DNA of 64,000 nt from a virus. The position numbers were made by a program, and so were the translations under genes. Below the pieces are notes generated by a model that was not told the origin of the DNA, searched no databases, and saw only the letters and a program-made list of their open reading frames with translations. Positions 847-52,763 of the stretch are shown piece by piece (position 1 is the first letter of the stretch; the number at the start of each line of letters is the position of its first letter). The stretch lies in the IMG/VR virus record IMGVR_UViG_3300044729_002487, positions 21,515 to 85,514 of that record; one strand, given 5' to 3'.

Positions 847-3666
847 ATGAGTTTAGCTGAATGGATGGTGGAAAGTATATTAAATGAAAGCGATATCAAG
901 CAAGTCATTGTGATATACCCCGGCCGTTTTCAACCGATGGGACGACACCATGCTGCCGTGTACAAAAAATTAGCATCGCAATTTGGTAAATCAAATACAT
1001 ATATTGCAACATCTGATGTAGTTAATCCACCTAAGTCTCCTTTGAATTTCCAAGAAAAAGCTCAGGTAATGAAGGCTCATGGAATAACAAATGTCGTTCA
1101 AGTTAAGAATCCATATCAGTCATTGGAAATAGTTGAAAAATATGACCCGGCGACTACGGCAGTATTATTTGCGGTCGGTAAAAAAGATATGGCGGAAGAT
1201 CCTCGATTCCGAGTAGGCGCAAAAAAGAATGGAGAGCCATCTTACTTTCAATATTATGATGAAAACAAAGACAATTTACAACCATATGGTAAGCATGGTT
1301 ATCTAATAGTTGCACCACATGTGGATATTCAGATTCCTGGTTTTGGTGAAATGTCTGGAACAACTCTGCGTCAGGTATTAGCTTCTGCAGATGAAAAAAC
1401 ATTTAAAGATGTGATGGGATTCTATGATCCAAAAATACATGACATGCTTAAAAAAAAGTTTGAATCTTTAAAGTCTGAAACGGTTGTACAAACCAATACA
1501 GCAAACGAAACCGTTGTATTTAGTAAGAATTGGTGGTCAAAATTGATTGTAGAAGGACGTTACGATAGTTTAGTTACTACATTATCGCGAGACATTGTCA
1601 CTCAAATGAAAAGCCGTAAAGGTACTCGTAATTATGAAGTTTCATTTGATGTTGATAGAGGTGATAATACTGCCGAAATTGATTTGGTTGTCAAATTTAA
1701 ACCACGCCGCAATTGGGAATTTGCATATGAAACCAAAGGATGGACGGATGGTGAAATGATGGAAATAACATTAACGTTTAATCCAGCTGCTTTTCCAACA
1801 TCATATAGTAATCTTATTCCAGAATTAAAAGAAACATTACGGCATGAAGTTGAACATGTGGCTCAAATGCATTTTCAAGATATGAAAATGATCGAACCAA
1901 AAACAAAAGCCTTTTATCAGTATTTGTTAGCTCCTCATGAGGTAGCAGCATTTACTCAAGGTTTATATAAAAGAGCAAAAACTAAACGCGTTCCAATTGA
2001 CATTGCAATGGAAGAATGGTTTGATGAAAATGTACGAAATTTCTCACCATCGCAAAAATATAATCATTGGAACATTGTGAAATCGGCTTGGTTGGAGTAT
2101 GCTCATAAACATATACCAACTGCGCAATATAGCGACGAATTAACCGAAGGTATTGTTTCGGATACCGTAAAAAAATATAGTGCCAAGTTATCTGATAAAT
2201 ACAAAGACTTTGTTAAGCGATTGAAAATTGAAGGTAACGAAACAAAAGAAGCGTATCATAAAATCGTAGATGCAGTTGTTAACGGAAAGGAATTATCAAA
2301 AGAAGAGCGAAAAGAAGTTGGAGAACAACTCAAAGACGTTCTTAAATTGATAGGATTTACTGCGGCATCTATACTACCAGGCGGTATCATTTACTTGTTG
2401 TTAACGCGAGTAACTAAATTGAAACGGCATTTAGTACCATCCGCATTTTTAGAAAACCAAAACCCAGATAATATGATTAAATTAAAACCTTTGTTAGTTA
2501 AAGAAGCAAAAGCAAATACACATTTAACGCATTTAGAAGAATTGATTTTAACTCAAGGCCGCGACGGTTATGATTTAGCTCGGTCATTCTTATTAGAACT
2601 GATTAAAAATCTTAAAGGTAATTCCAATAACAAAGTTAATACCACTATCAAATGGGACGGAGCACCTGCAATCATATCAGGCGTTGATCCAGCTTCTGGC
2701 AGATTCTTTGTAGGTACAAAGTCTGTGTTTAATAAAGAACCTAAACTTAACTTTACAAATGAAGACATTGATCGTAATCATGGCGAAGCACCAGGATTAG
2801 TTGATAAATTGAAAAGAGCTTTAGCATACTTACCTAAATTAGGTTATAAAAATATTATGCAAGGCGATTTCATGTTTGACGATTCCACATTGAAAACTCA
2901 GACAATTGACGGTGTTAAACATTATACATTTAAACCAAATACAATTACATATGCAGTAGAAGCTGATTCGGATTTAGGACGTCGTATTTCTAAAGCAAAG
3001 TTTGGTATTGTATTTCATACCGGTTATAAGAACTTACAATCCGGAGCAGAATTTGGAGTTAGTGTATCAAATATAAGACAAAATCCGGATGTTTGGTTTG
3101 ATGATGCATTCTTTAAAGATACTACCGGTACGGTATTGTTAACTGATAATGAAGCCAAAGAGGTTGCTCGATTAATTAAAGAAGCAGATTCATTGAAAGT
3201 CGATTATCGCTCAATTCCATCAGAACTATTGAATACATATATTAATAGCGAAATACGAATTGGTCAGTTTTTAGATTCACCTGATAAATCATATGATGCA
3301 TTTTTAAAATGGTTACAACTTCGTAATGACAAAAACATTGATAAATTGAAATCATTGGCTGGTAAAGAAAAAGCATTAAATGCAGCTAAAGAACAAATGA
3401 AATCGGTCACTGATAACAAACAAAACATTGTGAATGCATTTAAGGTATCAAAATTGTTAGCAGAAGCTAAGATGATATTTGTGCAAAAATATAACAATGC
3501 TGTTTACAATACAAAACATTTTGTTGACGATGGCCAAGGAGGTTTACGAGTTTCAAATCCAGAAGGATATGTAGCAGTAGATCATATCGGTAACGGTATT
3601 AAATTAGTAGACCGATTAGAATTCTCTAGAGCCAATTTTGCCATGGACAAAGGCTTTACTAAGTAG
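847..3666 (+). CDS. Multidomain prohead-cargo polyprotein
   Basis: This 939-residue protein joins four unlike regions. Residues 15-236 resemble a cytidylyltransferase-fold nucleotidyltransferase (YPGRFQPMGRHH, then GTTLRQVL). Residues 237-434 carry HEVEH (333-337) and a downstream HE at 364-365, as in zinc metallopeptidases. Residues 435-553 resemble a LETM1 membrane segment (LPGGIIYLLLTRVTKLKRH). Residues 554-873 hold KWDG (602-605) and MQGDFMFDD, as in covalent nucleotidyltransferases/ligases; phage DUF6267 proteins look like this. Prohead-protease-like sites fall at the junctions: LNE14/S, IVE236/G, LTE434/G, VKE553/A and LAE873/A. I infer a cargo polyprotein cleaved by gp21. Domain calls are by motif only, and activity of each piece is unproven. 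Confidence 0.65.
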   Translation: MSLAEWMVESILNESDIKQVIVIYPGRFQPMGRHHAAVYKKLASQFGKSNTYIATSDVVNPPKSPLNFQEKAQVMKAHGITNVVQVKNPYQSLEIVEKYDPATTAVLFAVGKKDMAEDPRFRVGAKKNGEPSYFQYYDENKDNLQPYGKHGYLIVAPHVDIQIPGFGEMSGTTLRQVLASADEKTFKDVMGFYDPKIHDMLKKKFESLKSETVVQTNTANETVVFSKNWWSKLIVEGRYDSLVTTLSRDIVTQMKSRKGTRNYEVSFDVDRGDNTAEIDLVVKFKPRRNWEFAYETKGWTDGEMMEITLTFNPAAFPTSYSNLIPELKETLRHEVEHVAQMHFQDMKMIEPKTKAFYQYLLAPHEVAAFTQGLYKRAKTKRVPIDIAMEEWFDENVRNFSPSQKYNHWNIVKSAWLEYAHKHIPTAQYSDELTEGIVSDTVKKYSAKLSDKYKDFVKRLKIEGNETKEAYHKIVDAVVNGKELSKEERKEVGEQLKDVLKLIGFTAASILPGGIIYLLLTRVTKLKRHLVPSAFLENQNPDNMIKLKPLLVKEAKANTHLTHLEELILTQGRDGYDLARSFLLELIKNLKGNSNNKVNTTIKWDGAPAIISGVDPASGRFFVGTKSVFNKEPKLNFTNEDIDRNHGEAPGLVDKLKRALAYLPKLGYKNIMQGDFMFDDSTLKTQTIDGVKHYTFKPNTITYAVEADSDLGRRISKAKFGIVFHTGYKNLQSGAEFGVSVSNIRQNPDVWFDDAFFKDTTGTVLLTDNEAKEVARLIKEADSLKVDYRSIPSELLNTYINSEIRIGQFLDSPDKSYDAFLKWLQLRNDKNIDKLKSLAGKEKALNAAKEQMKSVTDNKQNIVNAFKVSKLLAEAKMIFVQKYNNAVYNTKHFVDDGQGGLRVSNPEGYVAVDHIGNGIKLVDRLEFSRANFAMDKGFTK

Positions 3667-3701: not shown

Positions 3702-4322
3702 ATGAAAGAAACTGAATTACGTCGTATAATTCGTGAACATATTAAACGTTTATTGGAAGGTCCTTCATTAGGAGCTGGTTCATCTGAATTAGAGCGAGGA
3801 TTAGGTAAAATTGAAAAACGTGCATCTAATTTGACACCACGTCAAAGAGTGGCAGCTGTTTTACCGGTATTACAAAAATTCGGTATTCAGTCAAGCGATC
3901 TTTCATTGATTAAAATTGAATTGGCAAAAGCTGCAAAACAAGCTACGGTACAAGATGCATCCGCTGATAAAGCTGCCGATGATGCCGCGGCTAAAGCAAA
4001 AGCCGATGCAGAAGCAAAAGCTGATACAGAAACACCTGAAGAAGAGCCAACTAAAAAAGAAGAGCAATATACAGCAGGCGTTGATGATAATTATGCCGGC
4101 AAGGCGTTTAAACGTCCAAAGGCAATGCAAGAAAATTTAACATCATTATATTCAAAAGCGGAAAAGGTTGATAAAACACAAGCTTTCCAGATGTTACAAA
4201 GAGCAGTAGCTCAAAAACCTTCAACTATGCAAGCAGATTTTGTTGTGGATTTAATTAATAAATTCAATTTAGATGATTCTGCAAAACGTAGATTAAAAAT
4301 GATAATTAGAAACATGGCATAA
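3702..4322 (+). CDS. Cargo protein with capsid-targeting-like leader
   Basis: 206 residues. The first 19 form a basic amphipathic helix (ETELRRIIREHIKRLLE) ending in LLE19/GP, a prohead-protease-type site; almost the same leader occurs in the gene at 31217. The middle (about 80-125) is a low-complexity Ala/Asp/Lys/Glu linker, followed by the short motif YTAGVDD, which recurs in the gene at 14195. The C-terminal 70 residues look helical. There are no enzymatic motifs. It shares one base with the next gene. I infer a protein packaged in the head and trimmed by gp21; its function there is unknown. Confidence 0.6.
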   Translation: MKETELRRIIREHIKRLLEGPSLGAGSSELERGLGKIEKRASNLTPRQRVAAVLPVLQKFGIQSSDLSLIKIELAKAAKQATVQDASADKAADDAAAKAKADAEAKADTETPEEEPTKKEEQYTAGVDDNYAGKAFKRPKAMQENLTSLYSKAEKVDKTQAFQMLQRAVAQKPSTMQADFVVDLINKFNLDDSAKRRLKMIIRNMA

Positions 4323-7089: not shown

Positions 7090-8661
7090 ATGACGCAGAA
7101 ATCATTAAAAGAAATTATTAAAGACGAGTACAAAAAATGTGCGATGGACCCCGTGCATTTTATGAAAAAATACTGCGTTATCCAACATCCAACAAAAGGA
7201 AAAATGTTCTTTCATTTATATCCTTTTCAGGAAGAAGTACTTACTTCATTGCAACATAATCGTTATAGTGTAATTCTTAAATCACGGCAGTTAGGTATTT
7301 CCACTTTAACTGCAGGATTTTCATTATGGGCAATGTTATTTCGTTCAGATTATAACGTATTAGTCATTGCTACAAAACAAGAAGTAGCAAAAAACTTAGT
7401 TACCAAAGTACGTGTAATGCATGATAATTTACCTTCATGGTTAAAAGGAAAATCAGTCGAAGATAATAAATTGTCATTACGATTTAAAAATGGGTCTCAA
7501 ATCAAAGCTGTATCATCAAAAGGAGATGCAGGTCGTTCTGAAGCATTATCATTACTAGTAATAGATGAGGCGGCATTTATCGATCGAATCGATGAAATAT
7601 GGACTGCAGCTCAACAAACATTAGCAACTGGTGGTGGTGCAATCATGTTATCAACACCTAACGGTACTGGTAATTTATTTCATAAAACATGGGTTGATGC
7701 AGAAGCGGGAGGCCAATTTCATCCAATTAAATTGCATTGGTCAGTACATCCTGAACGAGATCAGGCATGGCGTGATATGCAAACAGAATTGTTAGGTGAA
7801 AAAGCAGCTGCGCAAGAATGTGATTGCGACTTCATATCATCCGGACATACAGTAGTTGATGGTCCTATCATTCAATGGTATGAGCAAACATATGTCGAAG
7901 ATCCTAAAGAGAAACGTGGATTTGATGGTAACTATTGGATATGGGATTATCCAAATTACAATAAAGCATATGCAGTTGTAGCTGACGTTGCTCGAGGCGA
8001 TGGTGCTGACTATTCAGCGTTCCATGTCATTGATATTGAATCTATGACTCAGGTAGCAGAATATCGAGGTAAAATAGGAACTACGGAATACGGTAACATG
8101 TTAGTATCTGTCGCAACTGATTATAATAATGCATTGCTAGTAATTGAAAATGCTAATATTGGTTGGGCTGTAATACAAGTTGCAATTGACCGTGGATATC
8201 CAAATTTATATTATTCATACCGCGATGATGCATATGTAGATGAAAATATACATTTATCAAAAGGATATGACCTCAAAGGCAAGGCACAAAAAGTTCCAGG
8301 ATTTTCAACTACATCAAAATCACGTCCTTTGATAATTTCAAAGATAGAAACATATTTCCGAGAAAAAGCTCCAATCGTCCGTAGTAAACGGTTGACAGAT
8401 GAATTATATGTATTCATTTGGAATGGTTCAAGAGCAGAAGCTCAAAGAGGTTATAATGATGACTTGATAATGTCATTCGGTATCGCTTTATGGGTACGCG
8501 ATACGGCGTTACGTTTACATCAACAAGGAATAGATTTAACCAAAAAAACATTAGGCCATTTAGGTAAATCACAAGGAGTATACTCAGCAAATAAAAATAG
8601 TAACGGTTCTTGGGACTGGAAAGCTGGAGCCGACTCAGATGACTTGAAATGGTTACTTTAA
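7090..8661 (+). CDS. Terminase large subunit (gp17)
   Basis: The 523-residue DNA-packaging motor: an ATPase that pumps DNA through the portal plus a nuclease that cuts concatemers. The ATPase P-loop region is KSRQLGIST (64-72), as in gp17-type terminases. Walker B is LLVIDEAAF (D159 E160), followed by the coupling motif STPNG. The C-terminal RNase-H-like nuclease shows VVADVARGDGADYSAFH with paired acidic residues near 300. It lies directly before the portal gene, the usual order 17-20. No small terminase subunit was recognised in the window. Confidence 0.95.
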   Translation: MTQKSLKEIIKDEYKKCAMDPVHFMKKYCVIQHPTKGKMFFHLYPFQEEVLTSLQHNRYSVILKSRQLGISTLTAGFSLWAMLFRSDYNVLVIATKQEVAKNLVTKVRVMHDNLPSWLKGKSVEDNKLSLRFKNGSQIKAVSSKGDAGRSEALSLLVIDEAAFIDRIDEIWTAAQQTLATGGGAIMLSTPNGTGNLFHKTWVDAEAGGQFHPIKLHWSVHPERDQAWRDMQTELLGEKAAAQECDCDFISSGHTVVDGPIIQWYEQTYVEDPKEKRGFDGNYWIWDYPNYNKAYAVVADVARGDGADYSAFHVIDIESMTQVAEYRGKIGTTEYGNMLVSVATDYNNALLVIENANIGWAVIQVAIDRGYPNLYYSYRDDAYVDENIHLSKGYDLKGKAQKVPGFSTTSKSRPLIISKIETYFREKAPIVRSKRLTDELYVFIWNGSRAEAQRGYNDDLIMSFGIALWVRDTALRLHQQGIDLTKKTLGHLGKSQGVYSANKNSNGSWDWKAGADSDDLKWLL

Positions 8662-8687: not shown

Positions 8688-10565
8688 ATGGCAGATACTT
8701 CATTACGGACACGATTACGCAGACTATTTTCTACCAGTGTAGTCGTTAGGCGTATCGCAAAAAACCGATTAAAGGTAGTCGATGCTAATAAATTACAGTC
8801 ATCCGGTAACATGCAGAACCCGTCATGGGTAGATCGTTTTGCTGGATTGCATCGTGGGCAAAATGGTTATATCACTTATAATCAAACTTACAATTTTCAT
8901 CAATCAAAATTAGAATTATTTTCTGATTATGAGGCAATGGATATGGATCCTATATTATCATCGGCGTTAGATATTTACGCGGATGAGTCGACAGTAAAAA
9001 ATACCGAAGGTGATACATTAACAATTTCATCTACTAATCCAGAAATTCAAAAAGTACTACGTAATTTATTTTATGATATATTAAACATAGACTACAATTT
9101 ATGGCCATGGATTCGCAACGCATGTAAGTATGGTGATTTCTTTTTGCATTTAGATATTGAAGAAGAAGTTGGTATTGTCAATGTAACACCATTGTCATCA
9201 TATGAAATTCGGAGAGAAGAAGGATTTGATCCAAACAACCCATATGCATATCGATTTGTATTGGAAGGTACTCATATGTCTTATGCAAATGCGACAAGAC
9301 CAAATCCACAGCAATTTGAAAATTATGAAGTAGCTCATTTCCGTTTAATATCAGATTCAAATTTCTTGCCATATGGTAAATCAATGATTGAGCCAGCTCG
9401 TAAGATTTTTAAACAATTAGCGTTAATGGAAGATGCGATGTTAATCCAACGTATTATGCGTGCACCGGAACGTCGTATTTTCAAAATAGATGTAGGAAAT
9501 ATTCCACCTCATGAGGTTGATAATCATATGCAACAGATTATTAACAAAATGAAAAAGATTCCATATATGGATGAAAAGACTGGGGAATATAATCTTAAGT
9601 TCAATATGGAAAACATGATGGAAGATTATTATCTTCCTGTACGCGGTTCTGAATCTGGTACATCTATTGAATCTTTACCTGGATTAACAAATGATGGTCA
9701 AATTGAAGATATTGAATATCTACGTAATAAAATGATGGCCGCATTAAAAATACCAAAAGCCTTTTTAGGTTATGATGAAGGTGTTGAAGGTAAAGCAACA
9801 TTAGCGGCGGAAGATGTACGATTTGCAAGAACAATTGAACGTATTCAAAAAATCTTTATTTCTGAGCTTACGAAAATTGCAATAGTACATTTATATACAC
9901 AAGGATTTACGGATGAAAATTTAGTTGACTTTTCTTTGGATTTAGTTTCACCAAGTATTATCTATCAGAAACAAATGGTGGAGTTGATGGAATCTAAAAT
10001 TGGTTTAGCTAATACATTAAAAGAATCATTGATGTTTTCTGAACAATGGATTTATGAAAACATATTTAATCTTTCAGCACAGGAATGGACAGAAGAACGT
10101 GACCGAGTAATTGAAGACCAAAAAGAAGCATTCCGTAGAGAACAAATCAAATCAGAAGGAAATGATCCTAAGAAGACAAATATGAGTTTTGGTACACCGC
10201 ATGATATTGCATCAATGCACGTTGCATCTAAAGGTACATTGTTACCTGGCATGGAACAAGAGCATGTAGGTGGTAGTGGTAGACCAAAAGAGCCAGGTAC
10301 ATGGGGTAAACATTCAAGCCCTCATGGAAGAGATCCGTTAGGAATAAAAGCATTATCAGGTACATTTAATACAGACAAGTCCCCATTAGATACAAAGTTT
10401 AGAAAATCATCACCATTAAGCGTTGAGAATAAACAAATTGTCGATACATTGCGCGGATCGTCTTTAAAAACAAAAAGTATAATTCAGGAATCTATATCCG
10501 AAACAACTGTATCAAATGAAGATGCAGGAACGATGTTAGATGAATCACAATTACTTGAGGATTAA
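8688..10565 (+). CDS. Portal protein (gp20)
   Basis: 625 residues, a normal length for T4-like portals (T4 gp20 is 524; environmental relatives are longer). Recognisable portal signatures include SSALDIYADEST near residue 95, the basic stem/wing stretch QRIMRAPERRIFKIDVG near 255, and IPKAFLGYDEGVEGKATLA near 355. The C-terminal 120 residues are a low-complexity extension rich in Gly, Ser, Lys and Glu. The dodecameric portal forms the head vertex for DNA entry and exit and nucleates prohead assembly with gp22. It sits between terminase and the head-core genes. Confidence 0.93.
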   Translation: MADTSLRTRLRRLFSTSVVVRRIAKNRLKVVDANKLQSSGNMQNPSWVDRFAGLHRGQNGYITYNQTYNFHQSKLELFSDYEAMDMDPILSSALDIYADESTVKNTEGDTLTISSTNPEIQKVLRNLFYDILNIDYNLWPWIRNACKYGDFFLHLDIEEEVGIVNVTPLSSYEIRREEGFDPNNPYAYRFVLEGTHMSYANATRPNPQQFENYEVAHFRLISDSNFLPYGKSMIEPARKIFKQLALMEDAMLIQRIMRAPERRIFKIDVGNIPPHEVDNHMQQIINKMKKIPYMDEKTGEYNLKFNMENMMEDYYLPVRGSESGTSIESLPGLTNDGQIEDIEYLRNKMMAALKIPKAFLGYDEGVEGKATLAAEDVRFARTIERIQKIFISELTKIAIVHLYTQGFTDENLVDFSLDLVSPSIIYQKQMVELMESKIGLANTLKESLMFSEQWIYENIFNLSAQEWTEERDRVIEDQKEAFRREQIKSEGNDPKKTNMSFGTPHDIASMHVASKGTLLPGMEQEHVGGSGRPKEPGTWGKHSSPHGRDPLGIKALSGTFNTDKSPLDTKFRKSSPLSVENKQIVDTLRGSSLKTKSIIQESISETTVSNEDAGTMLDESQLLED

Positions 10566-11485: not shown

Positions 11486-11778
11486 GCCAAGGACCATATA
11501 TAATTGCAGATTCATATAGCCAATTCGAGAGACATGGCCATCCGGGAAAATATGTTCATCCTATAAAAGTCACAAATGCAACCGTCGAATTCACGGGTTC
11601 ATTATATGGATATGGTGCAATATTAGTACAAAATAATACAGGTTTGGAAGTAACCGCATCTAATGGTGTTGGTATACCCGGAGCTGCTTTTACTACCGGT
11701 ATAGTACATGAAGTTGGTATTCGTCGTATAAAAGCTGGAGCTTCTGGTATAGTTTATGTATTTAGGAGACAACAATAA
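11482..11778 (+). CDS. Small beta-rich head-module protein
   Basis: 98 residues with a Gly/Val/Ile-rich pattern of short strands, suggesting a small beta-barrel or decoration-type fold. There is no cysteine pair, membrane segment or leader. It overlaps both neighbours by one to four bases, so it is translated as part of the head operon. A capsid decoration or vertex role is possible but is not shown by the sequence. Confidence 0.5.
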   Translation: MSQGPYIIADSYSQFERHGHPGKYVHPIKVTNATVEFTGSLYGYGAILVQNNTGLEVTASNGVGIPGAAFTTGIVHEVGIRRIKAGASGIVYVFRRQQ

Positions 11779-12629
11779 TGGGTTTACTGCAAGACATAGA
11801 TCGTTCATTTAAGCGTTTATATGAAAGTGTCGATAAGATATCTGACAAAGAAGCTGAAATGGACTTTGATGATTTAGATGATAAAGACGTTGACAATGAC
11901 GGTGATTCTGATAAGTCAGATAAATACCTACATAACAAATTAGGCAATGTTGCTAAAAGGGTAGATGAAACGGCATATAAAGAAGTAAAAGCAAAGTATG
12001 CAGGTAGACCAGTTGTTATACATTATATTGGTAATGATATGACAAAATGGTTAGTGACATTTACTAAAACAAATAAAACAGTTCCATATGCTGATGTGGT
12101 TGCAAACCTTACAGATATGAGTGGTAAACCAATCGGCTTTCCATCCGGGTTTCGTTCAATGTATGAAGCTGATGAAGAGGAATTGGAAGAGATGTCAACT
12201 ACTGCCGGAGTACCTGGTTATCAAACTCCATTTGCATTTGGTGATGCAGATGAAGATACATATGGTCAAGGCGGTATGAAGAAAGTTAAAAAGACTAACC
12301 GTATATTCAAACCTATGGAATCAAAGTCTACTTTTAAAAAAATGATGTCTGAAATGTATGGTGTAAAATCATCTACAAATGAAGCGGTATCATATAGAGA
12401 TTATAAAAAAGATCCTACATCAACTCCTCAACAAAAAGTTAACAAAGGTATTGCCGAAGTTAATGCTATGTTAAGCGAAATGGAAAAGATTGTAGCAAAT
12501 AACTTAAGATTGAAAACCGAAATGGGTGTACAATCAAATCATTTTTGGAAATCGACTGGTGCTCGTTTTGCAAAGATAAATGAACGAATGACTCGTATTG
12601 CAAATAAATTAAAGGAACTATCACAATGA
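11778..12629 (+). CDS. Cargo/core protein with EF-hand-like loop
   Basis: 283 residues. The leader MGLLQDIDRSFKRLYE16/S matches the prohead-protease-type leaders elsewhere in the window. Residues about 35-50 (DKDVDNDGDSDKSD) form a calcium-loop pattern like dockerin or EF-hand repeats. Further possible cleavage points are MYE/A and TNE/A. The C-terminal 90 residues are helical. Located in the core-gene interval between portal and protease, it could be a core protein or injected cargo. No enzymatic motif is seen. Confidence 0.55.
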   Translation: MGLLQDIDRSFKRLYESVDKISDKEAEMDFDDLDDKDVDNDGDSDKSDKYLHNKLGNVAKRVDETAYKEVKAKYAGRPVVIHYIGNDMTKWLVTFTKTNKTVPYADVVANLTDMSGKPIGFPSGFRSMYEADEEELEEMSTTAGVPGYQTPFAFGDADEDTYGQGGMKKVKKTNRIFKPMESKSTFKKMMSEMYGVKSSTNEAVSYRDYKKDPTSTPQQKVNKGIAEVNAMLSEMEKIVANNLRLKTEMGVQSNHFWKSTGARFAKINERMTRIANKLKELSQ

Positions 12630-12787
12630 TTCCAGATAGATCATGGCAACAATTTATTAAAGCCAAAGAAAATCAAAATTTACCATTGCAAGAGCAAAAA
12701 AGGAAATATGCAGACGAACGAAAACGTTTTGAACAGCAAAGAGCATTCGTCAATTCTGGATTATTCATGCAAGGACTAAAAAAATGA
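12626..12787 (+). CDS. Small basic protein upstream of protease
   Basis: A 53-residue frame starts at an ATG overlapping the previous stop (ATGA) and ends overlapping the protease start (ATGA). That tight coupling is the main reason to accept it. The product is charged and helical (MIPDRSWQQFIKAKENQNLP, then KRKYADERKRFEQQ). T4 has the small core proteins gp67/gp68 at this position, but I see no sequence match to either. It may be a short core protein or serve to couple translation. Confidence 0.55.
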   Translation: MIPDRSWQQFIKAKENQNLPLQEQKRKYADERKRFEQQRAFVNSGLFMQGLKK

Positions 12788-13389
12788 GTAAGCAATTATT
12801 AGTAGATTATACATTGTTTGAAGTATCGCCTCAACAAATAAATGAGTCATTAAATAATAATGGTGGCCGTTTAATTGTTAATGGTGTATTGCAACGAGCA
12901 GAAGCTAAGAATCAAAATGGACGTATCTATCCTAGAAACATATTAATGCGCGAAGCAAACAAATATGCTGATTCATTTATTAAAGAGCGTAGAGCGTTAG
13001 GAGAATTAGATCATCCAGATTCATCCGTTGTTAATTTGAACAATGTATCTCATAACGTATTAGATATGAAATGGCAAGGAAATGACCTTGTTGGTACAGT
13101 TGAGGTATTATCTACCCCAGCTGGTAACATATTAAAAGAACTGTTCAAAGCAGGAATAAAACTAGGGATTTCGTCACGTGGAATGGGTTCGGTTAAGGAA
13201 GTTATGCGTGAAGGTGAAAATACTGTTGAGGTACAAGCTGACTTTGAACTTATTGCATTTGACTTTGTATCAAATCCATCTACTCATGGAGCATTTTTAT
13301 CACCAGTAAATGAGTCAGTTAACAGAGTGGTTGCAGATAAATATGCAAATGTTAATACGCTTATTTCTAACATAATTAGGGAGTTTTAA
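12784..13389 (+). CDS. Prohead core protease (gp21)
   Basis: 201 residues, a herpesvirus-assemblin-like serine protease that cleaves prohead proteins during maturation. Expected catalytic elements are visible: GELDHP (H77), GISSRGMG (S130/S131) and AFDFVSNPS (D160). T4 gp21 cuts after (L/I)-x-E before a small residue. The same pattern occurs in gp23 here (VTE58/A) and in many cargo proteins of this window. It lies upstream of gp22 and gp23 as in T4, separated by four small genes. Confidence 0.92.
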   Translation: MSKQLLVDYTLFEVSPQQINESLNNNGGRLIVNGVLQRAEAKNQNGRIYPRNILMREANKYADSFIKERRALGELDHPDSSVVNLNNVSHNVLDMKWQGNDLVGTVEVLSTPAGNILKELFKAGIKLGISSRGMGSVKEVMREGENTVEVQADFELIAFDFVSNPSTHGAFLSPVNESVNRVVADKYANVNTLISNIIREF

Positions 13390-13650: not shown

Positions 13651-14193
13651 ATGAATTTACAAAAACGATATGCGCAATTATTTGAAGGTAAACTTCGAAG
13701 TAATGATAAAGCCTTATTAGCAGAAGGTGATATGACAAGACAATATGACGGATTTATTGTATCTTCGGTAGATAATAAACTAAAATATAAGTTCCGTTAT
13801 ATGAAAGGTATACGAAATAATAAAGTAGAAGATGTAGCTATAGCAGATGTAATGAAAAAGACTGGAAAGCCTCGTTCATACTTTTGGGTTACTGGTGGTA
13901 TTAAAAAAGGTCAATGGGATCAAACTAAAGCAGAAATATTAGAAACTCGTATTAAAGAAGCTAATGAAATTCCATTACCAGAAGATATAATAAAAGATGG
14001 CATGGATGAAGTTAATCGTGTAATCGATGAACTACGTGATTTAGAACAGACTGTTATGTCATCTATTGAAATGTATCAAGAAGAAACAGGTGATTTACGA
14101 TTTGAACAAATTTTAAATCAAGGCGCTCGTTACATTCAATCTGCAGAACGCAATTTAGAATATTTACATAAAATGTTAAAAAGGAATCTCTAA
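13651..14193 (+). CDS. Cargo protein with LFE/G leader
   Basis: 180 residues. The leader MNLQKRYAQLFE12/GKLRSND, then ALLAE25/GD, offers two prohead-protease-type sites 13 residues apart. Nearly the same leader begins the genes at 44910 and 52440, although the rest of those proteins is unrelated. The mature part has a small N-terminal alpha/beta region (YDGFIVSSVDNKLKYKFRYM) and a helical C-terminus. No catalytic motif is recognisable. It is next to the protease gene. I infer that it is packaged in the head and ejected; its target is unknown. Confidence 0.6.
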   Translation: MNLQKRYAQLFEGKLRSNDKALLAEGDMTRQYDGFIVSSVDNKLKYKFRYMKGIRNNKVEDVAIADVMKKTGKPRSYFWVTGGIKKGQWDQTKAEILETRIKEANEIPLPEDIIKDGMDEVNRVIDELRDLEQTVMSSIEMYQEETGDLRFEQILNQGARYIQSAERNLEYLHKMLKRNL

Positions 14194-16335: not shown

Positions 16336-18063
16336 ATGAATTTGAATTCTTTATTACCTCATGATGCTCAAAGTACTCAAAACAAAGTTGCTATCGCTTT
16401 AGAAAAGAAGTGGCAACGTACAGGTCTTTTAGAAGGACTTGATAATGAGGTTGAGCGCAGAGGAATGGCGGTTCTATTAGAGAACCAAGCAAAACAATTG
16501 GTAACAGAAGCTAACGCAACTTCTACTTCTGCAAATGCTGAAGAGTGGGCTGGTGTTGCTTTACCATTAGTACGTCGTATCTTTGCTGAAATTGCAGCTA
16601 AAGATTTCGTTTCTGTACAACCTATGAACCTTCCTTCTGGACTAGTATTCTTCTTGGATTTCAAGTATGGTACCGCTCAGCAAGTAAAAGGATCTACCGC
16701 TGGTGGTAATGATTTTTTAACTGGCCAAGGACGTAAGTCTCAAGGTGATTCAGTATTTGGTATTACTGATGCTGGTGGTCTTGGAACTGAGGCAGCTGGT
16801 GGAACTGCTCCATCCGAAGGTCTTTATGGTGCTGGACGTTTTGGTTATACAATCAATGACGTGACATCATCTACTTTCACATTGGCTAACTCTGTAACAT
16901 CTGCTCGTACAGGATCTGTTGCAGTTGGTACTGGTGTATTCTCAAACGGTGGTAACTTAACAGGTGCTAGATTTGATTATGTTACTAACTACAATTCAGA
17001 ATTATCTGCATCAGTAGTTTCTACCGGAGCTGGACCATTTACTATCTTATCAATTCCTACCGCATCATTGAGCAATCCTGACTTGAATGGTCTTCGTGCA
17101 TTCAACGTACAAGGTACTAACTTAGATGCTGTATATCCTGAATTCACTCGCCTTTCTAAAGGAAAAGGTCATATTGAATTCTTAGTTGAAGCTGATAGCG
17201 ACTTGAATGCAGTAACAGTAATCTACCAAAAACAACCAGGTGCTGCTAGCCGTGGTGATTTTGAAGATCCAACTGCACTTACAAATAACGTTAAAGCTGC
17301 TTATTTAGATATCCCAGAAATTAACTTGGAACTTCGTTCTGAAGCAATCGTTGCTAAGACTCGTAAGTTAAAAGCAATCTGGTCTCCTGAATTCGCTCAA
17401 GACCTTAACGCATACCACTCAATTGATGCTGAAGCTGAATTAACTTCTATGTTATCTGAGTACATCTCCCAAGAGATTGACCTAGAGATCTTAGACATGT
17501 TGATCCAAAATGCTCAGACAGTCGATCGTTGGTCTGCTAAAATTGGTTTTGAGTGGTCTGCCGCTTCTAACTCATTCGTTCAGTCTAATGCTACTGCTCA
17601 AGCATACAACCAAGGAACTTGGTTCCAAACATTAGGAACTAAAATCCAGAAAGTAAGCAACCGTATTCACCAATTAACAGTACGTGGTGGAGCAAACTTC
17701 TTAGTATGTTCTCCATCTGTAGCTACTATCCTTGAGTCAATCCCAGGATATGCTGCTGATACTGATGGTGATAAAATGCAGTTTGCAATGGGTGTACAAA
17801 AAGTTGGTGCTATTAATAATAGATTCCAAGTTTATAAAAACCCATACATGACTGAAAATGTAATCCTTATGGGTTATAGAGGATCTCAATTCCTTGAAAC
17901 AGGTGCTGTATATGCTCCATATGTTCCGTTGATCATGACTCCATTAGTGTACGATCCTAACAACTTTACACCAAGAAAAGGTGTTATGACTCGTTACGCT
18001 AAGAAAATGGTTCGTCCAGAATTCTACGGAAAAGTATATGTTTCTGCATTGGATACCATCTAA
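16336..18063 (+). CDS. Major capsid protein (gp23)
   Basis: 575 residues (T4 gp23 is 521). The N-terminal propeptide of 58 residues ends in QLVTE58/ANATSTSA, the expected gp21 maturation site, followed by the gp23 hallmark EEWAGVALPLVRRIFAEI and FLDFKYGTA. The middle has an extended insertion domain (about 100-290). The C-terminus contains VCSPSVATILESIPGY and GYRGSQFLETGAVYAPYVPL, typical of T4-like capsids. It follows the scaffold gene by 22 bases and ends just before a strong hairpin terminator, consistent with the most abundant late transcript. Confidence 0.96.
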   Translation: MNLNSLLPHDAQSTQNKVAIALEKKWQRTGLLEGLDNEVERRGMAVLLENQAKQLVTEANATSTSANAEEWAGVALPLVRRIFAEIAAKDFVSVQPMNLPSGLVFFLDFKYGTAQQVKGSTAGGNDFLTGQGRKSQGDSVFGITDAGGLGTEAAGGTAPSEGLYGAGRFGYTINDVTSSTFTLANSVTSARTGSVAVGTGVFSNGGNLTGARFDYVTNYNSELSASVVSTGAGPFTILSIPTASLSNPDLNGLRAFNVQGTNLDAVYPEFTRLSKGKGHIEFLVEADSDLNAVTVIYQKQPGAASRGDFEDPTALTNNVKAAYLDIPEINLELRSEAIVAKTRKLKAIWSPEFAQDLNAYHSIDAEAELTSMLSEYISQEIDLEILDMLIQNAQTVDRWSAKIGFEWSAASNSFVQSNATAQAYNQGTWFQTLGTKIQKVSNRIHQLTVRGGANFLVCSPSVATILESIPGYAADTDGDKMQFAMGVQKVGAINNRFQVYKNPYMTENVILMGYRGSQFLETGAVYAPYVPLIMTPLVYDPNNFTPRKGVMTRYAKKMVRPEFYGKVYVSALDTI

Positions 18064-31117: not shown

Positions 31118-31153
31118 TTGTATTTGGATTGGGGTGACCCTGGTCGAAAAATT

Positions 31154-31181
31154 AAAGCCTTTCTTCGGAAGGGCTTTTTTT
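31154..31181 (+). terminator. Rho-independent terminator after tail tube
   Basis: Perfect 10-bp stem AAAGCCTTTC / GAAGGGCTTT (one T-G pair) with a TTCG loop, then a run of T. It ends the sheath-tube transcript. Confidence 0.92.
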
Positions 31182-31189
31182 ATGTTCAA

Positions 31190-31197
31190 ATATTTAT
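31190..31197 (+). promoter_or_regulatory. Late-type motif ATATTTAT
   Basis: Immediately downstream of the tube terminator, 19 bases before the 31217 cargo gene. Confidence 0.5.
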
Positions 31198-31216
31198 ATT
31201 AAATAAAGGATTTAAA

Positions 31217-31546
31217 ATGACTGAAAAAGAATTAAGACGCATTATTCGAGAAGAAGTTAAAAGAAAATTATTATCAGAAGCCGATGTAATTCCTGTTGGA
31301 CCAGATGGTCAAGAAATTAGCGATCCTAAGGTTATTAAAAATCTTAACATGGCATTAAAAGCAATTGGCGGAAACATTCGTGGAAAAATCATTGATATGA
31401 TTGAAGATCCGACAGCCGTGAAAGATCTTTCGAATACATCTCAAAAAGCAGCGGTAATGGCGGCTATGGCAATTGCCTTTGGTATTACCGGAAAAGAATT
31501 TGCGCAGATAGTATCAAAAATAAAAGCAATACTACCAGCTGAATAA
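31217..31546 (+). CDS. Cargo protein with LSE/A leader
   Basis: 109 residues from the ATG at 31217; the frame is open upstream, but that would cross the terminator. The leader MTEKELRRIIREEVKRKLLSE21/A nearly duplicates the leader of the 3702 protein, while the rest is unrelated. The mature part is a small, helical, partly hydrophobic domain (AAVMAAMAIAFGITGKEFAQ), which could associate with membranes. It shares one base with the next cargo gene. Packaging and ejection are inferred from the leader. Confidence 0.6.
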   Translation: MTEKELRRIIREEVKRKLLSEADVIPVGPDGQEISDPKVIKNLNMALKAIGGNIRGKIIDMIEDPTAVKDLSNTSQKAAVMAAMAIAFGITGKEFAQIVSKIKAILPAE

Positions 31547-31992
31547 TGATTAAGTTGAAATCTATATTGTCTGAAATTTTGCTCGAATCAGAGTTAACGA
31601 CATATGGCGATTTAAAACAGCTTATTAAAATGATTAAATTAAAACAAAAAGGTGGTACGATTGTATCAAAAGGCGTAGAAGTAGGCGTTGATACACTACT
31701 AGGATTTTTACCAGGTGCAAATTCAGCAAAAACGTTTTATGATTTTTTTAAAGCAGCTACAAAGAAACCGGATACTAAAAAAACTAAAACATGGTTAGAT
31801 AATTTAGATATTGATGATCAGGTTTCTGCTATTGTAGATGACACTGTAGAAAATGGATTTCTTCAAGATTTAGCAGCATCTATAGAAAGTGAATCAGATA
31901 CTAAAGAGTTAGAACCTGATTTTAATATGAACAAAAAGCTTCAGGATTACCTAGCAGACAAATATGATAAACGTACAGTTACGATGAAATAG
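31546..31992 (+). CDS. Cargo protein with LLE/S leader
   Basis: 148 residues. The leader MIKLKSILSEILLE14/S is short, amphipathic and ends in a prohead-protease-type site. A basic helix and a hydrophobic stretch follow (KGVEVGVDTLLGFLPGANSA), then an acidic helical C-terminus (DDQVSAIVDDTVENGF). It is translationally coupled to the preceding cargo gene. The two could act as a pair after ejection. There are no enzymatic motifs. Confidence 0.55.
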   Translation: MIKLKSILSEILLESELTTYGDLKQLIKMIKLKQKGGTIVSKGVEVGVDTLLGFLPGANSAKTFYDFFKAATKKPDTKKTKTWLDNLDIDDQVSAIVDDTVENGFLQDLAASIESESDTKELEPDFNMNKKLQDYLADKYDKRTVTMK

Positions 31993-33184: not shown

Positions 33185-33454
33185 ATGACTCATGATAAAT
33201 TTGAATCAAAGCTTCTTAAACAGATTAATTCAATTGACCAAATCGATGAAGGATTAGGTTCTACTATTCTCAATTTATTATTTGGTGGTAAATTTAAAAA
33301 AACTTTACAAACAATTTCACGCGAAGAAGATGATTTTCCGGAATATCAAGCAGCTTTAGCAGACTTTCATACAAATCTACAAAATTTAGAGAAATTACAA
33401 GCTCGTATGAATAAACAGGTGAAGGCATTAAATAAAGCTAATAAACGTAAATAA
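33185..33454 (+). CDS. Small protein with IDE/G leader
   Basis: 89 residues. MTHDKFESKLLKQINSIDQIDE22/G has the leader pattern of the cargo set, though its helix is less basic. A Gly/Leu-rich segment (LGSTILNLLFGG) and a coiled coil (TNLQNLEKLQARMNKQVKAL) follow. It stands two bases before the tape-measure gene, so it could be a tape-measure partner instead of head cargo. Cargo status is less certain here than for the others. Confidence 0.45.
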   Translation: MTHDKFESKLLKQINSIDQIDEGLGSTILNLLFGGKFKKTLQTISREEDDFPEYQAALADFHTNLQNLEKLQARMNKQVKALNKANKRK

Positions 33455-44909: not shown

Positions 44910-45167
44910 ATGAATTTAAAATCGCAATACAAAAGATTATTTGAAGGCAAAGCAAGATCTAATGATCAGAAAATCTTAAAAGAAGATTATTCAACAATGC
45001 GATTAAAGTCTAACATTGATATGAAATGGTCAGATAAACAAGCTATGATTGATGATATGACTCAATGGTTAGAAAGCGTTTATGCTTCTGGAGGTGAAGA
45101 TACTTATGATGACATCATAGAAGCTTTGCAATATTTGATTGATAACTTCGAGCCATCAGGAATTTAA
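44910..45167 (+). CDS. Cargo protein with LFE/G leader
   Basis: 85 residues. The leader MNLKSQYKRLFE12/GKARSNDQKILKE is almost identical to that of the 13651 protein, over 31 kb away; after residue 30 the two are unrelated. The mature domain is short, acidic and helical (MIDDMTQWLESVYASGGEDT). It is followed one base later by another cargo-type gene. The small acidic mature domain is reminiscent of inhibitor or mimic proteins, but no target is indicated by sequence. Confidence 0.6.
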   Translation: MNLKSQYKRLFEGKARSNDQKILKEDYSTMRLKSNIDMKWSDKQAMIDDMTQWLESVYASGGEDTYDDIIEALQYLIDNFEPSGI

Positions 45168-45168
45168 T

Positions 45169-45705
45169 ATGAAATTGAAAACATTACTTCGTGAAGCCAA
45201 TGAAAATCCAATGTTAAAAGAATTGGAGCAACGTTTGAAATCACATGACTGGTGGTATCAATATAGCGATGATCATAGATATTGGGTTCGAGGTGGACAA
45301 GAAATGGATGCTATACGAAAACTAGTTGCTCAGATTAATGAAGCTGGTTTGGAAAAAGAAGGTGAAGCAATTTGGAAAAAAACAGCACCAGATGATTTTA
45401 AATCATGGTATCCTAAAAAATTAAAGGAGGCAACTCATCCAATCGGTTCATTAGGTCGTGACATGAGTACTACACCTAACCCAAATATATCGCGCGCGGA
45501 GTATGAAGCAGATGTTAAGCTTTGGTCATCTAAAGCTGTAGAGTTTGAAAAGATAAAAAAAAATCTTGAAAGTCGTTTAAAGCGTACTAAAAACCCGAAT
45601 CATAAAGAAACGTTAGAAGGCGAAATTGAATACGTGCAAGACCAAATTGATACGTTTGAAGGCATGGTTTATGACCTGCGACGCATTATAAAAAATATAA
45701 AATAA
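45169..45705 (+). CDS. Cargo protein with LRE/A leader
   Basis: 178 residues from the ATG at 45169, one base after the preceding stop; a longer frame would overlap that gene. The leader MKLKTLLRE9/ANENP is the shortest of the set. A second site (KLKE/ATHP) near residue 94 lies between two helical domains: residues 10-90 (WWYQYSDDHRYWVRGG) and a C-terminal coiled coil. It may therefore be cut into two peptides. The function is unknown. Confidence 0.5.
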   Translation: MKLKTLLREANENPMLKELEQRLKSHDWWYQYSDDHRYWVRGGQEMDAIRKLVAQINEAGLEKEGEAIWKKTAPDDFKSWYPKKLKEATHPIGSLGRDMSTTPNPNISRAEYEADVKLWSSKAVEFEKIKKNLESRLKRTKNPNHKETLEGEIEYVQDQIDTFEGMVYDLRRIIKNIK

Positions 45706-52439: not shown

Positions 52440-52763
52440 ATGAATTTAAAAGAATCATACCAAAGATTGTTTAAATCTAGACCATCATCAAATGATATAT
52501 CGTTATTGGAATCATCACGTAAATCTTTAACAGAAGTTCAAGCACTTAAAGGAAAAGTTGGTGAATATGAATTTATTAACTGGGTTAACATGCATGATAC
52601 TAAAGCGGCGGATGAAATTCAAGAGATAGACACTACTATGATGGATTCGGATGCTGTAGCAAATGATTATTTTGATATACTTCAAAAATATAAAATCCCA
52701 GGAACGATTACAGACGTCAAGCTTGACCGCGACGGTTATATATCTTGGATAAAAATAAAATAA
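52440..52763 (+). CDS. Cargo protein with degenerate first site, intact second
   Basis: 107 residues. MNLKESYQRLFKSRPSSND is the same leader as in the 13651 and 44910 proteins, but the first site is LFK instead of LFE. SLLE24/S and SLTE32/V follow, the former a good site. The mature part is a small alpha/beta domain (EYEFINWVNMHDTKAADEIQ; TITDVKLDRDGYISWIKIK). Retention of the leader in a gene placed away from the head module supports a shared packaging signal. Confidence 0.55.
   Translation: MNLKESYQRLFKSRPSSNDISLLESSRKSLTEVQALKGKVGEYEFINWVNMHDTKAADEIQEIDTTMMDSDAVANDYFDILQKYKIPGTITDVKLDRDGYISWIKIK

Follow-up and report, generated by a model that had tools for sequence, protein, structure and literature searches.

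The DNA studied here, called the window below, is a stretch of 64,000 nucleotides (bases 21515-85514 of the 85.5-kb IMG/VR virus record IMGVR_UViG_3300044729_002487). Its genes are T4-like, with Pfam matches for gp17, gp20, the S77 prohead protease gp21 and gp23, and it probably belongs to a T4-like phage of a Bacteroidetes host. Near the start of the window, an open reading frame (ORF) at 847-3666 on the plus strand forms one uninterrupted frame of 939 amino acids. An earlier note on this DNA had read its product as a polyprotein, in which five candidate sites for gp21 separate four enzyme-like domains and a tail. We found that the frame is real and that all five named sites are present in the translation: SILNE↓S at residue 14, KLIVE↓G at 236, DELTE↓G at 434, LLVKE↓A at 553 and KLLAE↓A at 873 (the arrow marks the predicted cut). 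Two relatives (L001 and L002) carry the same four modules in chains of 949 aa, which are 74-77% identical to the window polyprotein. The features of the ORF, several of which resemble capsid-targeting sequences (CTSs), are as follows (pLDDT, predicted local distance difference test; NMN, nicotinamide mononucleotide).

847..3666, plus strand: polyprotein of 939 aa with predicted CTS punctuation (ORF and translation; same four modules in L001 and L002)
847..888, plus strand: N-terminal propeptide MSLAEWMVESILNE that resembles a capsid-targeting peptide, residues 1-14, with a gp21 cut predicted after E14 (codon 886-888)
889..1554, plus strand: NMN/phosphopantetheine-adenylyltransferase-like module, residues 15-236, 25 kDa (PHROG 395, Foldseek)
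1513..1554, plus strand: linker VVFSKNWWSKLIVE, residues 223-236, WW-type and CTS-like; predicted cut after E236 (codon 1552-1554); low pLDDT at 210-239
1555..2148, plus strand: candidate HExxH zincin-like metallopeptidase module, residues 237-434, 23 kDa (HEVEH); predicted cut after E434 (codon 2146-2148)
2149..2505, plus strand: LETM1-related helical module, probably membrane-active, residues 435-553, 13 kDa (NCBIfam NF040639)
2473..2505, plus strand: linker MIKLKPLLVKE, residues 543-553; predicted cut after E553 (codon 2503-2505)
2506..3663, plus strand: DUF6267 ligase-like nucleotidyltransferase module, residues 554-939, 43 kDa (Pfam PF19782)
3463..3465, plus strand: E873, the fifth site of the earlier note, judged not to be a processing site; inside a helix of the DUF6267 model

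Residues 18-217 of the first module matched the cytidylyltransferase family PHROG 395 (cytidylyltransferase/NMN-adenylyltransferase-like; 1e-7), and Foldseek aligned their predicted structure with a probability of 1.00 to NaMN/NMN adenylyltransferase and phosphopantetheine adenylyltransferase structures (best E 1e-3). As modelled, the module has the fold of the HIGH-superfamily NMN adenylyltransferases, and an ISGTxxR-type motif is kept, but an invariant PMGxHH replaces the HxGH motif. The family-invariant QPMGxHH occupies residues 29-35, where the catalytic HxGH is expected, and the chemistry of the module may therefore be altered; the NT2 type of adenylyltransferase in other phages retains PPHKGH. 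The module at residues 237-434 gave no family match, including in Pfam, and its structure was poorly modelled, but it contains the HEVEH motif. Its E↓GRYD start is shared with the last module of gp088 of Flavobacterium phage immuto, and a stand-alone distant relative (L039) has its own short N-terminal peptide ending in INE. In the third module, residues 457-538 matched NCBIfam NF040639 at 3e-9; the match is partial, spans only the C-terminal fifth of the model and lies below the curated cut-off (36.6 of 250 bits), while Pfam LETM1_RBD scored 0.11-0.34. The module thus fails the curated-family score for a LETM1 domain, and its helical sequence is probably membrane-active.

The last module is a clear DUF6267 domain (PF19782), which covers residues 557-935 (3e-101; 339.8 bits against a gathering cut-off of 27) and was modelled as an isolated domain with a pLDDT of 82. 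In an alignment of 25 sequences (A6), its invariant residues are KxDG (602-605), GD (673-674), EGxV (906-909) and KxV (919-921), which are motifs I, III, IV and V of the covalent nucleotidyltransferases (DNA/RNA ligases). T4 Rnl1, LIG1 and tRNA/RNA ligases appeared repeatedly but without significance among its top 50 structural matches in the PDB, the best of them with an E of 0.28 and a probability of 0.18, so that the label "ligase-like" is supported by the motifs and only weakly by the modelled fold. Direct sequence matching of DUF6267 or the adenylyltransferase to solved structures gave no significant hit.

Two further motif matches, MVE↓S at residue 9 and LIKE↓A at 779, were found in the ORF. 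Outside junctions, the strict motif occurs in this protein family at 0.0027 per residue (about 1 per 370), and about 2.5 matches are expected in 939 residues against 7 found. The sites at 14, 236, 434 and 553 fall between modules, and the low-confidence stretches of the full-length model (9-14, 210-239, 430-449 and 497-560) coincide with these four, although this proves little alone because the modules at 237-434 and 435-553 are poorly modelled overall. The N-terminal propeptide is short and ends in (L/I/V)xE before a small residue (MSLAEWMVESILNE↓S), as a CTS does, and it has the same form as the N-terminal CTSs of other head genes of the window; a hydrophobic-x-E↓S/A is kept at the N terminus of most relatives that begin with the adenylyltransferase. 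In gp23 of the window, LLE↓G (33) and LVTE↓A (58) provide an internal calibration of the gp21 motif.

The proposal that the sites mark domain boundaries did not extend to 873, which lies inside the confident helix H305-335 of the isolated DUF6267 model; the match at 779 lies inside helix H214-228, and it was likewise rejected as a processing site. Among fused relatives, residue 873 is E in 21, D in 12 and another residue in 4, and 35 of the 38 homologues that have no targeting peptide carry the motif at this position. In T4, processing of the IPIII CTS is blocked when its cleavage position holds an Asp (PMC9026906). The stretch after 873, which the earlier note had set apart as a tail, was also rejected as a separate piece, since it holds EGYV (906) and KLV (919), the ligase motifs IV and V. 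Because of its helix position, its E/D/Q variability, its occurrence in CTS-less homologues and the split it would make between motifs I/III and IV/V, 873 was dismissed, and therefore four products of 25, 23, 13 and 43 kDa, without a tail, are predicted.

The linkers themselves resemble targeting peptides. A WW-containing helix that ends in a site (LTKEWWxxxFKxLLTE; LTKEWWSNTFKELLTE↓; SKNWWSKLIVE↓) is present in 33 of 53 distinct linkers and stands in front of different modules. The Met of MIKLKPLLVKE↓ is kept in all three close relatives (window, L001 and L002), and this linker resembles the start of a stand-alone gene at 31546 (MIKLKSILSEILLE↓S); from its sequence, the linker at 543-553 looks like a fossil start Met and CTS fused in frame. 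Internal translation may start at Met543, where we saw no clear ribosome-binding site upstream. A second upstream site that would excise the linker was present in 27 of 53 linkers against an expectation of 29%, which is suggestive only.

Searches with the first module matched 405 IMG/VR contigs, 80 of which were kept, and searches with DUF6267 and the other modules added more, giving 215 loci in which architectures were counted. The results showed 13 module architectures, among which modules were lost, exchanged or permuted. Examples are NT-PEP-LET-LIG (the four modules of the window, L001 and L002), NT-M28a-M28b-LIG, NT-M28a-M28b-LET-LIG and NT-M28a-GGA, besides the permuted NT-M28b-M28a-GGA, the reversed LIG-NT and also GGA-NT; the sites recur at junctions of permuted or exchanged modules. 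The alternative C-terminal module, GGA, contains a KxDG-like motif of its own and gave no informative Pfam match; E↓GGAxGHMxHPFD...EKxDGQN (L094:3103-4305 and relatives; L217:9926-11845) represents a second KxDG ligase-like family in the slot of DUF6267. M28a and M28b (L028:1798-2418) are two unnamed modules frequent in these polyproteins, and M28b (PINIGDTVMMGKFKNK...) is also found in a separate gene beside DUF6267 in Pelagibacter phage HTVC008M. A further module (PHROG 23027/14518; L131:1572-4727, residues 223-334) is encoded by separate genes in Methylophilales Melnitz and Sinorhizobium phiM12-type phages. Between the window and L028, the first and last modules are about 70% identical and the middles unrelated, and between the window and L001/L002 the modules are 66-92% identical except the LETM1-like one (31-33%), a pattern expected if cassettes were exchanged at the sites. 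Searches for more relatives recovered only 3 loci for the metallopeptidase module and 2 for the LETM1 module.

Conservation at the junctions is the strongest evidence that the agreement between site and boundary exceeds chance. Before fused DUF6267, a Glu with a hydrophobic P3 stands at the junction in 29/29 distinct linkers (LLTE↓AKANTHL, IIKE↓AKANTHL, PIKE↓AKANTHL, ILDE↓AKANTHL and LVKE↓AKANTHL, for example), a few of which, L108 among them, are offset by one or two residues in the alignment. Before the GGA module, hydrophobic-x-Glu was found in 22/22 distinct linkers. Over all distinct junctions, the strict motif was present in 89 of 116, against a null mean of 7.6 and a maximum of 18 in 2000 random-position sets from the same ORFs; for hydrophobic-x-E with any P1', the count was 113 of 116 (null mean 32, maximum 52, 1000 sets). 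The upstream linker sequences and partner modules differ widely among these junctions. Homologues existing as separate genes, which the earlier note had proposed as a check, were found with their boundary at the predicted residue: one kind of stand-alone DUF6267 gene starts with M↓AKANTHL exactly at residue 554, just past the predicted cut, and the other has a CTS-like start such as MKNFKLYFEDYLELLEE↓GKANTHL. The junction site was missing from homologues without an N-terminal targeting peptide, and relatives kept it when the neighbouring module changed. Among fusions with DUF6267 first and the adenylyltransferase behind it, the junction carries a site in 8/14 with an N-terminal CTS versus 0/26 without one (Fisher p 4e-5), and in cyanophage S-PM2 the CTS-less DUF6267 form lies among DNA replication genes. 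These controls, together with the location in head clusters, indicate that junction sites are tied to head context and to targeting peptides and do not simply follow from fusion. The sites are almost certainly real, selected features of the junctions.

The phage that carries the polyprotein has a cognate S77 protease gene in the same head cluster. The genes concerned, and the gene next to the polyprotein, are as follows.

3702..4322, plus strand: adjacent gene that begins with a CTS-like peptide of its own, MKETELRRIIREHIKRLLE↓G; homologue near 41/69 polyprotein loci that begin with the adenylyltransferase
7090..8661, plus strand: terminase large subunit gp17 (Pfam Terminase_6N)
8688..10565, plus strand: portal gp20 (Pfam Portal_T4, 3e-77)
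12784..13389, plus strand: prohead protease gp21, the predicted processing enzyme in trans (Pfam Peptidase_S77, 2e-28)
16336..18063, plus strand: major capsid protein gp23 (Pfam Gp23, 6e-78)

At the same 69 loci, gp17 was found near 53 and gp20 near 33. Cultured REPRESENTATIVES with the same layout were found in Flavobacterium phage immuto (gp088) and Microcystis phage Mel-JY01 (WWT39297), whose capsid proteins are 55-58% identical to that of the window. Immuto gp088 (907 aa, annotated as NMN adenylyltransferase) contains, in order, a polymerase-beta-like nucleotidyltransferase (weak Pfam match), the adenylyltransferase and two HExxH modules, the second of which is homologous to the HExxH module of the window. 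Its sites are LAE↓A at 286, VKE↓G at 496 and MAE↓GRYD at 702, the last being the counterpart of IVE↓GRYD in the window. WWT39297 consists of the adenylyltransferase and an IIAE↓GGLGGHMNHPF ligase module. In the head cluster of immuto, we also noted gp079 (L216:14007-16532), an 841-aa protein with the CTS-like start MKKLIRIVE↓A and several internal sites.

On the reading that we favour, the N-terminal peptide and the CTS-like linkers would target the chain into the assembling prohead core, where gp21 would cut it in trans after Glu14, 236, 434 and 553. The cuts would release four head-internal proteins: the adenylyltransferase, the HExxH peptidase candidate, the LETM1-like membrane module and the DUF6267 ligase-like nucleotidyltransferase. 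These would stay in the head until they leave it together with the DNA, and would work early in infection, one possible role being NAD+ or RNA repair that counters host defence, an idea suggested by the pairing of an adenylyltransferase with a ligase-like enzyme and in line with a survey (PMC9503650). A single chain would guarantee co-packaging and an equal dose, and the cut sites would serve as cassette borders for module swaps between phages. Cleavage, packaging, ejection and enzyme functions are all predicted here from sequence. That gp21 cuts the chain at the sites appears quite probable, and the gene as a whole is likely to encode a cargo polyprotein with CTS punctuation that enters the prohead and is cut up by gp21 acting in trans; packaging of several products in virions is also likely, and their injection and early action are somewhat favoured.

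Several observations weigh against this reading. In relatives, the site at 434 is less strong (QIHE↓G, DINE↓G), the boundaries of the metallopeptidase module are closely backed by only three sequences, and the middle modules are assigned to enzymes only weakly. Six CTS-bearing ORFs with DUF6267 first have no strict site before the adenylyltransferase; conversely, immuto gp088 and the GGA-NT ORFs L082, L084 and L087 have junction sites but no recognisable N-terminal CTS. Moreover, the 116 junctions are phylogenetically related and do not count as independent events.

Other explanations of the same features were considered. The chain might remain whole in the virion except for its N-terminal propeptide, as a tethered multi-enzyme whose CTS-like linkers only bind the scaffold through avidity. 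Work on T4 separates the targeting residues of a CTS from its processing residues (PMC9026906), and the CTS-bearing DUF6267-adenylyltransferase fusions without a junction site imply that uncut fusions are tolerated. Yet what is conserved at the junctions is the cleavage Glu and the hydrophobic P3 while the linker varies, and a targeting-only linker would need neither; at the decoy position 873, Asp occurs in 12/37 versus 0/29 before fused DUF6267. We regard an uncut chain as unlikely. The embedded HExxH metallopeptidase, and not gp21, might instead free the domains of a self-processing polyvalent protein, as the HEVEH motif of the second module would allow and as was proposed for the embedded zincins of such proteins (Iyer et al., PMC5512222). 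Among the IMG/VR polyproteins, only the window, L001 and L002 have the HExxH module, yet other relatives keep the same sites, and the motif matches gp21 targets, including gp23 and the N-terminal CTSs of this phage, which makes self-processing quite improbable.

The polyprotein might also be an intracellular multi-enzyme that acts late in the cell and is unrelated to the head, its sites being relics or a matter of linker chemistry. The CTS-less DUF6267 of the replication cluster of S-PM2 implies that intracellular forms exist, but those forms are without both CTS and junction sites, and the polyprotein lies beside gp17/gp20 in most loci; we give this explanation very little weight. Chance or composition, with a loose (L/I/V)xE motif arising in acidic linkers, could be raised because the motif is short and has the background frequency given above, but in the face of 29/29 and 22/22 at the exact junctions and of the null comparisons, its probability is negligible, barring a gross alignment artefact. 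The reading of a cargo polyprotein cut by gp21 is thus the one that we retain.

Apart from the polyprotein, at least nine further genes of the window start with a CTS-like peptide ending in hydrophobic-x-E↓G/A/S (such as MKETELRRIIREHIKRLLE↓G and MNLKSQYKRLFE↓G): 3702-4322, 11778-12629, 13651-14193, 31118-31546 (in-frame ATG), 31546-31992, 33185-33454, 44910-45167, 45139-45705 and 52440-52763. The window phage probably packages a large set of uncharacterised head proteins, judging from these starts. In 13651-14193 and 52440-52763, the N terminus holds two sites or site-like motifs at a spacing of about 13-19 residues (QLFE↓G and then LLAE↓G in 13651-14193), which suggests a two-step propeptide.

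The known internal proteins of phage heads are each encoded by a gene of their own and carry one targeting peptide, and polyprotein processing counts mainly as a speciality of eukaryotic viruses. A large family with the same protease signal before each module would mean that a tailed phage can load all its tools for early infection in the form of a single precursor. It would also offer a sequence rule for injected proteins of unknown function, namely the module after hydrophobic-x-E↓G/A/S in head-cluster genes, and it suggests a natural design for loading several proteins at a fixed ratio into T4-like capsids in laboratory delivery systems. Two cultured phages, immuto and Mel-JY01, carry versions of it and make the claim testable. 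In the open-access text of PMC, we found no report of a DUF6267 function or of a gp21-processed multi-enzyme polyprotein.

The claim of a new strategy was broadened in that the gene belongs to a large modular family, wider than one phage, and tempered by known systems that share parts of it, the polyvalent proteins (PMC5512222) and the CTSs and Alt of T4 (PMC9026906, PMC5694885). In T4, CTSs fused to foreign proteins cause them to be packaged and processed (PMC9026906), and gp21 removes CTSs and cuts Alt at both ends (PMC5694885). Like the polyprotein, IPI-III and Alt combine a short N-terminal propeptide ending in hydrophobic-x-E, an S77 protease in the head cluster and diverse cargo behind a conserved targeting peptide; they yield one mature protein per gene, whereas the window chain has four targeting/cleavage elements and several predicted enzymes. 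The ejection proteins of phiKZ-like phages (SPN3US gp47, gp53 and gp54) are likewise head-internal and matured by an S77-like protease after Glu, with propeptides cut at several sites (PMC10052503), but there the cut propeptides are discarded and one mature protein is left, while the chain described here would leave several folded modules. DUF6267 (T4-like cyanophage families GC71/GC190) clearly includes the C-terminal module, although, unlike this module, the S-PM2 protein is CTS-less, joined to an adenylyltransferase and placed in a replication cluster.

The polyvalent proteins (Iyer et al. 2017, PMC5512222) are, like the polyproteins here, multidomain proteins with shuffled effector domains and predicted delivery with the DNA, and their authors liken them to RNA-virus polyproteins. 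The combination of at least two disparate domains in shuffled arrangements that marks them is found here in the 13 architectures. Pfam scans of these polyproteins detected no ArdC-N, ART or RadC, which are typical polyvalent-protein domains, and the HExxH motif, present in the window, L001, L002 and immuto, is absent from most relatives. For polyvalent proteins, embedded zincin or assemblin-like peptidases were proposed, whereas in the present family the recognition motif at nearly every junction is that of an S77 protease that is a separate protein and acts in trans. What the sequences point to is the combination, a CTS-bearing and gp21-processed phage cargo arranged as polyproteins of exchangeable cassettes. 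We think it fairly probable that a true polyprotein strategy is shared by many T4-like phages of marine and fresh waters, with a gp21-diced cassette gene, ejected enzymes and cassettes exchanged at the protease sites, which would be the tailed-phage counterpart of the Gag-Pol or picornavirus plan.

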